This document shows positions 45,534-63,991 of a stretch of DNA of 64,000 nucleotides, piece after piece. The translations under genes were made by a program, and so were the position numbers. The notes under the pieces were generated by a model. The model saw only the letters and a program-made list of their open reading frames with translations. It did not search any database and was not told the origin of the DNA. The DNA comes from Negativicoccus succinicivorans (GTDB taxonomy: Bacteria > Bacillota > Negativicutes > Veillonellales > Negativicoccaceae), in contig NZ_JACHHI010000006.1 of NCBI RefSeq assembly GCF_014207605.1, forward strand, positions 1 to 64,000, written 5' to 3'. Position 1 is the first letter of the stretch; each line of letters starts with the position of its first letter.

Positions 45534-46754
45534 TCAGCGTTGTCCCAAACGACTCAGCGCACTTTGCAATGCACATAATGTCCAAAACGTGAGTGCCACT
45601 GTCCGGTGGAAGAAATTGTAATCGAACAGTCCGTTGATGCTCATAGCGACCACGGCCAATAGCACTCCCAAAGACAGCGCCCGCGCAAGGTGGCTGTCGC
45701 TTATCCGGTAGCTGCGCCAGGCCAAAACGCCATGCCCCCAAAAGGCCAGCATGTATAGCGCGAAGCCGATGATTCCGGTCTCCGCCAAGACCGTCAGGTA
45801 TAAATTATGTGCGTGGTAAATCACAATCGACGGATCCTGAATATAGTAATCATAGTGGGGATACACAAGCGGAAAAGCCGCCCAACCGATCCCGCTCGAC
45901 CAGTGATCGCCGATCATTTGCCAGGTGCTGCGCCAAAATGCAAAGCGCAGATCCACGGACGTATCGCCGCCGCGGAAAAGAGAAATAAAGCGCTCCGTAA
46001 TTTGTCCATGATGCAACCAAAGAAATGCGGGGACAGCCAACAAGCCCCAGGCGACCCTTCGATCATAGATAATGGCGGTGACGGTGAGTACCACCAGCAT
46101 ACTCACCCACGCCCCCCGTGAATACGTCAGCAATAACACCAACAATATCAGCAGCAAAAACGCTGCCAGAAGCAAGCGCTTATATCCGCGCTCATAAATC
46201 GCAGTAAAACTCGCGAGCACGCTCGCGATAATCAACAAATACGCCCCCAGCAAGTTGGGATTGCCCAGCGTACTGTACATCCGCCGCAGCAGTAGCGGAA
46301 AACGTTCGCGATCCACCCATTCCATAGTAAAGCCGTCAAACCCGCCGAAGAAATACTGATACACGCCGATGACACATACAATGACCGCGCCGGCCAATAA
46401 GTAGCTTAAAAAATGCACGCATTGCTCGCGCGTGCGTAACTGCCAGGTCACCAGTAAATACATCGCCGCATAGGTGCCGCAGCGATAAAAAAAGTTGTAT
46501 GCGCTGGCGGAAGGTTCCGGCGCCAACCAGGTGGTGCAATACGCCCAAGCGGCAAACAACATGAGCGCCACTCCCGGCCAACGCAAGGCGCGCAAACGAG
46601 CCGGCTCACGCCAAAGCAACACCGCCATAACGGCGCATGCCGAAAACAGCGAAAGCTCCAATCCCATTTGCCACCAGGGCATAAAAAAAGCCGCCGCGTA
46701 TAATAACCCGCTGCACCATTGCGATAATAATCGGGAATGCGTCTGTACCTGCAT
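45534..46754 (-). CDS. O-antigen ligase family protein (WaaL/Wzy-like)
   Basis: 406 residues with about 10-12 membrane helices and one large extracytoplasmic loop near the C-terminal half. The conserved Wzy_C region is seen around LLLLTYSRGAWVSMLVVLTV, and WRSTWQMIGDHWSSGIGWAAF with YHAHNLYLTVLAETGIIGF, including the loop His typical of the family. It joins O-antigen or another polymer to a carrier in the outer membrane pathway, or polymerises it. Its presence supports a diderm envelope. ATG at 46754 follows AAAGGAACG. It is monocistronic. Confidence 0.82.
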   Translation of the reverse strand: MQVQTHSRLLSQWCSGLLYAAAFFMPWWQMGLELSLFSACAVMAVLLWREPARLRALRWPGVALMLFAAWAYCTTWLAPEPSASAYNFFYRCGTYAAMYLLVTWQLRTREQCVHFLSYLLAGAVIVCVIGVYQYFFGGFDGFTMEWVDRERFPLLLRRMYSTLGNPNLLGAYLLIIASVLASFTAIYERGYKRLLLAAFLLLILLVLLLTYSRGAWVSMLVVLTVTAIIYDRRVAWGLLAVPAFLWLHHGQITERFISLFRGGDTSVDLRFAFWRSTWQMIGDHWSSGIGWAAFPLVYPHYDYYIQDPSIVIYHAHNLYLTVLAETGIIGFALYMLAFWGHGVLAWRSYRISDSHLARALSLGVLLAVVAMSINGLFDYNFFHRTVALTFWTLCALQSALSRLGQR

Positions 46755-61697: not shown

Positions 61698-61828
61698 AAT
61701 CATCATCCTTTATTTCATATTCACATTCATAATACTATTTATTGTAGTCTCGCGCCCGCGTAATGTCAAAGCGGCTTGCCGTTTTGACGGCGCTTGCGTA
61801 TACTAAAAACAAAAACGAGGAACTTGCC

Positions 61829-61981
61829 ATGATCATTATTTGCCCGTATTGCAAAAAAGAGCTAACCCTGTTTCAAAGCCAGGTAGAACGTCGACGCGGA
61901 CGCATTCGCTGCGTCGGTTGCAGCGCCGTGATCCCCTATGATCTCGATAAGAAGAACAGATTAAAAAAAAACCACAAATAG
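61829..61981 (+). CDS. Small zinc-ribbon protein
   Basis: 50 residues with two CxxC knuckles, ICPYCKK and RCVGCSA, spaced as in a zinc ribbon, and a basic C-terminal tail (DLDKKNRLKKNHK). It probably binds zinc and possibly nucleic acid. GAGGAAC lies 6-8 nt before ATG. It is the last host-type gene before the prophage. Confidence 0.65.
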   Translation: MIIICPYCKKELTLFQSQVERRRGRIRCVGCSAVIPYDLDKKNRLKKNHK

Positions 61982-62009
61982 GCGTTTGTTGCGTATGGAT
62001 CTTTCTTGT

Positions 62010-62031
62010 GGGGGAAAATTGGGGGAAAATT
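62010..62031. repeat. 11-bp tandem repeat at the prophage edge
   Basis: GGGGGAAAATT occurs twice in direct succession (62010-62020 and 62021-62031), 30 bp after the last host gene. It could be part of an attachment site, but the second end of the prophage is outside the window. Confidence 0.7.
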
Positions 62032-62124: not shown

Positions 62125-62237
62125 TTGACAACACTTATATATTCTGGTACTCTGGCTACCGATGGAGCTGGGGCGTGTACGTTACAAACCAGACCGAGAC
62201 AAGCCATGATACAAATGTGTCATGGCTTGTTTTCTTT
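62125..62237 (+). ncRNA. Candidate small RNA with promoter and terminator
   Basis: A promoter with TTGACA (62125-62130), a 17-bp spacer and TACTCT (62148-62153, extended TGG) is followed, with no open frame in between, by a strong terminator: ACAAGCCATGA (62199-62209) pairs with TCATGGCTTGT (62220-62230), then TTTCTTT. The transcript would be about 75 nt, starting near 62160. It lies between the host zinc-ribbon gene and the prophage lysis genes. No known RNA family is recognised. Confidence 0.5.
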
Positions 62238-62241
62238 ATGC

Positions 62242-62285
62242 GCTTTCAAGTAACTTTCGAGTAGCTTTCAAGTAACTTTCGAGTA
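62242..62285. repeat. 22-bp perfect tandem repeat
   Basis: A 22-bp unit beginning GCTTTCAAGT and ending ACTTTCGAGTA occurs twice without a gap (62242-62263 and 62264-62285). Each unit is itself two near-identical 11-bp halves. It lies just downstream of the last lysis gene and does not fall in a gene. Confidence 0.85.
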
Positions 62286-62290
62286 ACGGC

Positions 62291-62719
62291 TTATTTAACC
62301 GCCGCCGCAATTACCGCGGCTACGGCAATAATCTGCCACGCCCGCTTTTTATACTCAAGGCTCGTTCGCTTTTTCAGCTCTTCTTTTTTCCACTGAATTA
62401 ACGACTGCTCTGATTCTTTCAATGCTGTTTCTGTCTGCATCAAGGACCGCCGCTGCTCGATCTGCAACATCTTCAACCGTTCCAACTCCGCTTTCAAGTT
62501 GTTGTTGCTCTTGTTCAAGCCGCCCGACGCTGCTTTCAATTCGTTTATTAATTGTTGCCGCTCGTTCGTTCTCATCTCGAGCGCGCTCAATTCTGATGTT
62601 AGTGTCTGCCATTCCTCCGCCGTCAATGTCACCGGCGCCGCTTTCACCGAAAATCCACCAAATAAAAAAGCCGCCAACAAAAGCGGCAAGTAAATATATA
62701 ACAATCTTTTTCTTTGCAA
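62291..62719 (-). CDS. Prophage exported coiled-coil protein, possible spanin component
   Basis: 142 residues. An N-terminal signal peptide (LLYIYLPLLLAAFLFGGFSVKA, likely cut before APV) is followed by about 80 residues of Gln/Leu/Glu-rich coiled coil and a hydrophobic C-terminal segment (AWQIIAVAAVIAAAV). The TTG start follows AAGGGG by 9-10 nt, a good ribosome site. It has no lipobox Cys, so it is not a typical outer-membrane lipoprotein. It overlaps the gene at 62355-62759 for 365 bp in another frame. Position next to amidase and holin points to lysis. Confidence 0.6.
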   Translation of the reverse strand: MQRKRLLYIYLPLLLAAFLFGGFSVKAAPVTLTAEEWQTLTSELSALEMRTNERQQLINELKAASGGLNKSNNNLKAELERLKMLQIEQRRSLMQTETALKESEQSLIQWKKEELKKRTSLEYKKRAWQIIAVAAVIAAAVK

Positions 62720-62759
62720 TCGTTCTCACCCCTTCATGTAGTACGTGAATAAATTTCAC
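62355..62759 (-). CDS. Prophage N-terminally anchored coiled-coil protein, possible Rz-like inner-membrane spanin
   Basis: 134 residues. One membrane helix near residues 17-37 (KKKIVIYLLAAFVGGFFIWWIFG) follows a basic N-terminus, then a long charged region with heptads (TNIRIERARDENERAATINKRIESS and so on to EKRRAEKANEP). This is the topology of the lambda Rz inner-membrane spanin. It is read in a different frame from 62291-62719, and its start (GTG at 62759) has no clear ribosome site; another GTG at 62729 is possible. The clean hydrophobic and coiled-coil pattern argues that it is not a chance frame. Confidence 0.5.
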   Translation of the reverse strand: MKFIHVLHEGVRTIAKKKIVIYLLAAFVGGFFIWWIFGESGAGDIDGGGMADTNIRIERARDENERAATINKRIESSVGRLEQEQQQLESGVGTVEDVADRAAAVLDADRNSIERIRAVVNSVEKRRAEKANEP

Positions 62760-62884: not shown

Positions 62885-63418
62885 TTACTTTAACAATACG
62901 CCCCATTGTTGCGCGTACCATACCGCTTTTCCGACGATTATGTCCCTGCCGCTTTTTCCCGCCTCTTGTGGTAGTGACATCATGTCAACGCGTTCGCTTC
63001 CGTACCCGTCAACCTCCGCCCAATAATGGTGGTCGTGTATGTCCGCCGTTTGCACGCCTAAGCCAACGGCTAAATACGCAACTACACGCGCCATTGCCTC
63101 CACTTGTTTGTCCGTCGGTGGATAGTCGCCCCAATTCGTTACAGTCCCGTCTGCCCATACGTCGCCCAAACCGTAACAACAAGCTATTGCAATACCTAAA
63201 TTGCCGGTATTGCGCCGCCAAGTATGCGCGCCGCGTTCGTCAAAATTACAAGTAATGTAAATCTGCCCCGACCCGTCAATCACAACATGATAGGCGGAGT
63301 GGTCCACATCGTAATACGTTCCGGCCGTCCAATGTAGAGTAATTTTATCCACGTAACCGCGCCCGCGCATGATATGCGGATCAAAGGCGGACAAGTCGAG
63401 AATTTTTTCAATAATCAT
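62885..63418 (-). CDS. Prophage N-acetylmuramoyl-L-alanine amidase (endolysin)
   Basis: 177 residues, amidase_2-type zinc enzyme. A His lies in ITLHWTAGTYYDVDHSAYHVVIDGSGQIY near residue 28, followed by a NLGIAIACCYG segment, and DIHDHHYWAEVDGYG holds further His ligands. It cleaves the peptide from N-acetylmuramic acid in the cell wall at the end of phage growth. No signal peptide, so it needs the holin. It overlaps the holin gene by 4 bp. Confidence 0.87.
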   Translation of the reverse strand: MIIEKILDLSAFDPHIMRGRGYVDKITLHWTAGTYYDVDHSAYHVVIDGSGQIYITCNFDERGAHTWRRNTGNLGIAIACCYGLGDVWADGTVTNWGDYPPTDKQVEAMARVVAYLAVGLGVQTADIHDHHYWAEVDGYGSERVDMMSLPQEAGKSGRDIIVGKAVWYAQQWGVLLK

Positions 63419-63954
63419 AATTTTACTCTTTTCTCGATTTTATCCTTGACCAAGTCAAGAAAATGACCCATTGCCACATTGCCGCCGTCGCGCATGTTTT
63501 CCAAAATGGATAAAAATTCAGATGCGCCGAGATACAACCACACGAGATTAACGGCGAACCCTGCTCCGGTCATAAAGTCCCAACAGAAGCCCGCCGCCGT
63601 TGCTATTGTGTAGGTTATGACTTTGTAAATAAAGCCCTTTCGACAAAAACGCGACGTGATTCGCTTTTCAGCAAACGCAACAGGGATTGCCAGCCACTTG
63701 TCCGCTCCGGATATGTTTTCCGGCTTTGCGCCTTTCTCGATGAGCATCTGATACGTAATAGCGCTCCACTTGGTAGTAAGGTCAATCAGTACCAACAAAA
63801 TAAACACGCCCAAGACTTGAATGTGTTTAATCTGTATTAAGCAGACGGCCGCGCCACCAATAGCGGAAAAAGCCGACTTCACCCACCAAGCGTCGGCAAG
63901 CCGCGTCATTGCCTCCGCCACGCCATGAATAATTTCGTTTATTTCTTTCAACAT
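63415..63954 (-). CDS. Phage holin family protein
   Basis: 179 residues with hydrophobic segments around SAFSAIGGAAVCLIQI, VLGVFILLVLIDLTTKW and YKVITYTIATAAGFCWDFM plus VNLVWLYLGASEFLSIL, matching the Cph1/TcdE-like holin family. It forms the membrane lesion that releases or activates the endolysin. ATG at 63954 follows GGGGCG. A terminator lies just upstream, separating it from late genes beyond the window. Confidence 0.82.
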   Translation of the reverse strand: MLKEINEIIHGVAEAMTRLADAWWVKSAFSAIGGAAVCLIQIKHIQVLGVFILLVLIDLTTKWSAITYQMLIEKGAKPENISGADKWLAIPVAFAEKRITSRFCRKGFIYKVITYTIATAAGFCWDFMTGAGFAVNLVWLYLGASEFLSILENMRDGGNVAMGHFLDLVKDKIEKRVKL

Positions 63955-63965
63955 AATTCGCCCCA

Positions 63966-63991
63966 TTAAAAAAGCACCCTCAAAAGGTGCT
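63966..63991 (-). terminator. Terminator upstream of the holin gene
   Basis: On the minus strand AGCACC pairs with GGTGCT around TTTTGAGG, followed by TTTTTT. It would end a minus-strand transcript entering from beyond the window. Confidence 0.8.

Follow-up and report, generated by a model that had tools for sequence, protein, structure and literature searches.

Overlapping reading frames and the lysis cassette

The window (the whole stretch of DNA that was analysed, 64,000 nucleotides from Negativicoccus succinicivorans) contains at its right end two open reading frames on the minus strand, here called i and o. Their features and those of the neighbouring genes are presented in Table 1. An earlier note on this DNA had described two same-strand frames with a 365-bp overlap, and this is exactly the length that i and o share (62355-62719), with o read in the +1 frame relative to i. 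The longest i ORF (62355-62759 including the stop codon) has 134 amino acids counted from its first GTG. The likely starts in the window are TTG 62719 for o and, with more uncertainty, the internal GTG 62729 for i, which seems more likely than the first GTG because it is conserved among the relatives.

Table 1. Features of the i/o gene pair and its neighbours in the window
Feature	Positions	Strand	Details and evidence
i protein, candidate inner-membrane subunit, Rz-like topology	62358..62729	-	Likely coding part from GTG 62729; VRTI start region conserved in relatives
i transmembrane helix (predicted)	62646..62723	-	Residues 3-28 from GTG 62729; AlphaFold2 model; family hydrophobic run, median 21
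i periplasmic helix (predicted)	62367..62615	-	Residues 39-121 (83 residues); AlphaFold2, mean pLDDT 80.5
o protein: signal peptide, one long helix, hydrophobic C-terminal tail, no lipobox	62291..62719	-	142 aa, TTG start
o signal peptide (predicted)	62639..62719	-	About residues 1-27, ending ...SVKA/A, signal-peptidase-I type, no lipobox Cys; sequence
o helix (predicted), single and continuous, running into the tail	62297..62620	-	Residues 34-141; AlphaFold2, mean pLDDT 91.5
o hydrophobic C-terminal tail, RAWQIIAVAAVIAAAVK	62294..62344	-	Encoded past the i stop codon; sequence, stop spacing
Shine-Dalgarno-like sequence, GAAGGGG	62729..62735	-	9 nt before the o TTG, abuts the i GTG; from sequence
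Endolysin, Amidase_2, upstream of the pair	62885..63418	-	Pfam PF01510, E=1.2e-13
Holin, Phage_holin_4_1, lysis cassette neighbour	63415..63966	-	Pfam PF05105, E=1.1e-6; PHROG 199 holin

Based on 119 loci, the commonest position of the o stop codon is 64 nt past the i stop codon (36 loci), as in the window, and the remaining loci mostly deviate from this spacing by about 20 nt or less; the stretch of o beyond the i stop is the hydrophobic tail. Concerning the starts, 64 of the 119 loci have an i-frame start codon at a distance of exactly 4 nt upstream of the o start, typically as ATGTATG with one Shine-Dalgarno sequence ahead of both; in 15 further loci the i-frame start overlaps the o start at +2 (ATGTG), against a background of 5.3%. 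Since the two starts are staggered or overlapping behind one Shine-Dalgarno sequence, a single ribosome-binding site probably serves both genes.

The amidase and the holin beside which the pair had been placed were both identified by their Pfam domains (Table 1). Prophage genes for tail and internal virion proteins are found beyond the window; a 3068-aa ORF of the same prophage (L185:5492-14698) lies between the tail and the internal-virion-like genes. A 29,979-bp IMG/VR provirus holds a 99%-identical copy of the pair, and single-protein scans of viral contigs gave no match except the window's own prophage. A second, diverged copy (71% identity) is present on a different contig of the same 1.4 Mb genome and also adjoins an amidase. 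When two prophages of one genome are compared (L003 and L004, on G000:C6 and G000:C1), the amidases are 95% identical and the o proteins only about 70%; the spanin-like pair diverges much faster than the neighbouring amidase gene. In most of the relatives examined, the upstream gene encodes an Amidase_3, Amidase_2, GH25 or VgrG3-like hydrolase. These endolysins belong to unrelated families and, since the pair is found behind chemically different enzymes, it would have no specificity for one of them. One 4-Mb Negativicute genome (G081:C6) contains at least four copies of the pair (L007, L028, L031 and L032), each in a cassette of its own and preceded by an amidase gene.

Repeats are also found in the DNA next to the pair. 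Directly past the o stop codon (62242-62285), 11-bp units are iterated, with GCTTTCAAGTA and ACTTTCGAGTA alternating; the units are close to the end of the prophage and may be a site for an integrase or a regulator. On the plus strand, an inverted repeat of 15 nt precedes TTTTCTTT (62199-62230); this element is terminator-like and converges on the prophage lysis operon. Near the host-prophage border, beside the end of a short ORF (61763-61981), TGGGGGAAAAT is present in perfect tandem (62009-62030) and is possibly part of an attachment site; no tRNA was found near this tandem.

Distribution of the pair and constraint on both frames

We used a profile built from the first-round relatives of o to search the genomes of the class Negativicutes. 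Matches at E<=1e-4 are found in 150 of the 380 genomes, and more than 100 places match at E<1e-15. A profile scan of genome contigs, for which the query was a four-sequence alignment, added as hosts Acidaminococcus provencensis, A. fermentans, Acidaminococcaceae MAGs and an uncultured Selenomonadales bacterium. In the set of loci, which includes 60 further fetched loci and 25 viral contigs, an i ORF matched by the i profile (HMM A2) is present in the same register at all 154 loci where o scores above 45 bits (123 unique loci), and this match extends essentially over the full length in 122 of the 123. Between-family identities drop to 20-30%.

Outside the class, no full-length match to the i or the o profile was found in 384 Bacillota genomes (of 398 phylum-wide); the matches in these genomes are partial coiled-coil ones, mostly within larger ORFs. 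Within everything searched here, the pair thus appears restricted to Negativicutes. Long coiled-coil ORFs outside the class were excluded from the family, as were two loci (L021 and L023) that have an FtsX-like gene upstream and resemble EnvC-type cell-division hydrolase activators. The sole matches of a tblastn search of INPHARED with the window pair and other family members are coiled-coil minor head proteins of Bacillus phages, which we regard as chance. In one locus (L196, G236:C7) a very long open frame has the o domain at its C-terminus; the frame measures 649 aa on the piece that was fetched and 927 aa in the search of genomes, and it may be either a fusion or just open sequence upstream.

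The coding capacity of each frame was compared with synonymous shuffles. When the o protein is fixed, the i frame is expected to be open in 9.2 of the 123 unique loci if o's own codons are shuffled and in 0.34 if local codon usage is applied, whereas it is open in all 123; in the reverse shuffle (i fixed, o free) the o frame is expected to be open in 15 or 1 of the 123. None of the loci has an open third sense frame. In all of these counts the loci are kin and do not stand for 123 independent trials.

Concerning substitution rates, the ratio of third-position changes in o to those at positions 1 and 2 is 1.48 in the overlap, compared with 3.92 for the genes that lie upstream in these genome pairs. 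Third positions are less constrained in the tail of o, which lies beyond the overlap (1.91 vs 1.49 in the overlap, same pairs). All three codon positions change about equally fast in the central part of the overlap, at 20-59 codons before the i stop; the slowest-changing block is the one 10-19 codons before this stop. As the first two codon positions vary at almost the rate of the third, both i and o evolve quickly. Also, the identity of i lies above the null of a strict codon-pair shuffle in 91.5% of 425 pairs, a value that gives a direction and no P value because the pairs share members. The earlier note had proposed a check for selection in each frame, and the codon-position rates indicate constraint on both. 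It had also named homologues with a stop-broken frame as evidence against two genes; these are rare, and i is nearly always intact. The o frame is stop-broken and i still open in L025, L043 (=L184), L191 and L193, and both frames are truncated in L189, L190 and L192. The o-broken loci are probably decaying prophages or assembly errors; they would also fit a dispensable o.

It is scarcely credible that only one of the two frames is a gene and the other is open by chance or codon bias. Such a reading conflicts with the number of open frames (123 of 123 against 0.3-9 expected, and none for the other sense frame), with the flattened codon-position rates and with the membrane signals and the start and stop spacing, which are conserved for both frames. 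Coiled-coil composition can nevertheless create cross-frame similarity: in coiled-coil genes of other Bacillota, partial i and o profile matches occur in different frames. We rejected these genes as counter-examples, as the matches are partial and one frame is broken by stops; they show what a chance resemblance looks like, and the family pairs differ from it. By these data, i and o are a conserved gene pair and no chance overlap.

Predicted proteins and the host envelope

AlphaFold2 models of i and o were obtained from 80-member alignments, and together with the sequences they confirm the architecture previously claimed for each protein. The i model consists of a transmembrane helix, a linker and a helix (residues 39-121) about 12 nm long at 0.15 nm per residue. 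Both sequence and prediction give i the topology of an i-spanin (type II, N-terminal TMD, helical periplasmic domain), as in Rz. In o, a signal peptide is followed by a long helix, and the C-terminus is hydrophobic; in the o model a signal-peptide helix precedes the main helix, which is about 16 nm long at the same rise per residue.

In sequence, i is related to no known family by the searches made here. An hhalign comparison with lambda Rz detected no homology (probability 2.5%). The matches of i members to the Rz-like spanins of PHROG (phrog_214, phrog_89 and phrog_739) are weak and scattered, with low scores common to generic coiled coils, and we rejected them as homology. A further family, phrog_18860 (function not assigned there), is matched by 29 of the 80 i members with a best E of 5.8e-10. 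All four are weak matches typical of coiled coils and lead to no family assignment. No specific Pfam or NCBIfam family was found for i or o; their matches to SMC, HAUS1 and DUF3450 are scattered coiled-coil ones and were set aside.

The tail of o contains an uninterrupted hydrophobic run with a median of 14 residues (10-90% range 11-15, 123 loci), shorter than that of i (median 21), and a hydrophobic-moment analysis showed no clear amphipathicity. The best 19-residue insertion sums are about +9 for the o tails, -2.2 for the i helices, -3.7 for the C-terminal anchor of T1 gp11 and -2.5 for Rz; of these values the contrast alone is meaningful, not the absolute sums. By this contrast the tail of o is probably no ordinary inner-membrane helix. 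The last residue of o is Lys or Arg in 103 of the 123 loci, as in positive-inside anchors, which would suit a spanin-like pair with both proteins in the inner membrane. The tail would then be a C-terminal anchor (N-out, C-in), and the bundle would disrupt the outer membrane either directly on contact or through an outer-membrane protein to which it binds; a type I protein with a C-terminal TMD is explicitly listed as a conceivable i-spanin (PMC6139136). We consider this arrangement rather unlikely: the o run is short, its insertion sum is far from those of i and of the T1 gp11 anchor, and two inner-membrane anchors would leave no contact with the outer membrane.

The absence of a lipobox Cys from the second protein, as claimed before, was borne out in the window and in most of the family. 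With a six-frame lipobox rule that recovered both controls (lambda Rz1 and T1 gp11), only three of the 123 o proteins pass (L017, L026 and L029), and no lipobox ORF is found in the 30-kb window prophage. Another candidate lipoprotein ORF is present within 1.6 kb in seven loci; four of these ORFs are versions of a single short ORF, and the one at L025 is the truncated o. The o protein thus does not have the lipobox by which an o-spanin, an outer-membrane lipoprotein, is defined.

In many loci the signal peptide of o has the ending G/A-T-C-S-A, which is no lipobox and places a Cys at -3 relative to the predicted cut. This Cys, the three proteins that pass the rule and the known unusual lipobox AWAC (PMC6139136) would be the grounds for regarding the pair as an ordinary Rz/Rz1 spanin, in which o is a lipoprotein with an unusual lipobox (e.g. 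the frequent ...GTC-SA at the signal-peptide end). Such an assignment is very improbable. The Cys is not conserved (the signal peptides of the window o and of others contain no Cys), Thr is not a fitting residue at position -1 of a lipobox, and CSA fits a signal-peptidase-I site of the A-X-A type.

The hosts also argue against a lipid anchor. LolA (PF03548) was found in none of 120 genomes of the class, with a positive E. coli control, and LolB was not found in the genome that carries the window. This genome encodes Omp85, so the host has an outer membrane. Negativicutes are described as having no Lol system and no known outer-membrane lipoproteins (PMC5007114, PMC10665443, PMC5491611, PMC11784454), and the same lack of Lol is described for the diderm Terrabacteria, with the exception of Halanaerobiales (PMC11784454).

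Proposed function and comparison with known spanins

The gene layout, the predicted topologies, the position in the cassette and the host envelope fit a two-component spanin in which a protein tail replaces the lipid anchor. We therefore propose, with a probability of about 0.7, that the pair is a two-component, lipoprotein-free, spanin-like system that carries out the outer-membrane-disrupting step of the phage lysis cassette. The earlier note had suggested a spanin-like pair of a diderm Firmicute with a non-lipoprotein second subunit. This suggestion gains support from the comparative evidence: frames conserved across the class, a position after unrelated endolysins, restriction to the class in our sample, no LolA and no lipobox. 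On present evidence the pair would work like a spanin and would be no member of a known spanin family.

In the proposed mechanism, i would be anchored in the inner membrane, and o would be exported by Sec and cut by signal peptidase I. The o tail would insert into the inner leaflet of the outer membrane as a protein substitute for the lipid anchor, which hosts without the Lol pathway could not deliver. The i and o helices may form a heteromeric coiled coil; their lengths would be matched because indels strike both frames simultaneously. Once the endolysin has removed the peptidoglycan, the bundle would collapse and draw the membranes together, and the outer membrane would be fused or broken, as it is by Rz-Rz1. 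Concerning the orientation of the helices, either is conceivable: an antiparallel zipper would bring the anchors together in a SNARE-like way, and a parallel one would bridge the periplasm. More tentatively, a separate lipoprotein-free membrane-fusion machine may have evolved in phages of Lol-less diderms, with two full-length helices, the i helix N-anchored in the inner membrane and the o helix C-anchored in the outer membrane, SNARE-like zipping and an Ala/Gly-rich tail acting as anchor and fusion peptide. If such a class exists, similar systems would explain the 'spanin-less' phages of cyanobacteria and Thermus.

Membership of a lysis cassette, with a spanin role deduced from comparison, is also what would be seen if i and o were a lysis-timing or envelope-stress pair (an antiholin or an endolysin regulator) and no outer-membrane disruptor. 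This is very improbable: a separate holin is present, the variety of preceding endolysins speaks against single-enzyme specificity, and both the topology and the overlapping layout match those of spanins.

A lipobox is required of spanins both in the 2018 catalogue (PMC6139136) and in a 2025 survey (PMC12596118). The latter filtered o-spanins by lipobox and reports spanins as absent from phages of Gram-positive hosts (Bacillota) and of Cyanobacteria (PMC12596118). Kongari et al. state that their own criteria leave other anchors uncovered, and list spanin-less phages of cyanobacteria and Thermus (PMC6139136); these hosts belong to the diderm Terrabacteria described as without Lol (PMC11784454). 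In the literature covered here, outside of which lie subscription papers, we found none on spanins in Negativicutes and no published description that matches the i/o pair. As Negativicutes have an outer membrane and are reportedly without Lol or outer-membrane lipoproteins, the exit route of their phages was an open question. To this question the pair, which is encoded in two frames throughout the class and in which a protein tail would stand in for the lipid, gives a concrete and testable answer, and annotation based on the lipobox misses such systems. The pair also suggests where to look among phages of other diderm Terrabacteria. With more than 100 divergent examples, it offers a large natural data set on two genes that overlap over a long stretch and have a common start region and, for comparison with Rz-Rz1, an apparently unrelated, putative two-membrane fusion device.

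The arrangement of the genes is one of those seen for spanin genes (embedded, overlapped or adjacent in a lysis cassette), with the 365-bp overlap and the adjoining amidase and holin. Compared with Rz/Rz1 of lambda, which belong to the embedded or overlapped classes (PMC6139136, PMC5295617), the pair shares the last step of the lysis cassette, an i subunit with an N-terminal inner-membrane helix and a periplasmic coiled coil, and an exported second subunit in the +1 frame of the first. The differences are in the second subunit and in the gene starts. Rz1 is a 40-residue Pro-rich lipoprotein, whereas o would have a mature helix of about 115 residues with a hydrophobic C-terminal tail and no lipobox; also, the second gene of the lambda pair is embedded downstream (starts at 45966 for Rz and 46186 for Rz1), whereas the i and o starts nearly coincide here. 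No sequence homology between the two systems was detected. Compared with the unimolecular spanin gp11 of T1, o is likewise exported, has hydrophobic segments at both ends and belongs to the last gene position of the lysis cassette. In the T1 protein a lipobox is found at the N-terminus and a strong TMD of 19 residues at the C-terminus, whereas o lacks the lipobox and probably also such a TMD, its hydrophobic tail being short and weak by comparison. Finally, gp11 acts alone and its periplasmic part is predicted to be beta (PMC6139136), whereas o is always accompanied by i and is all helix in the AlphaFold2 model.
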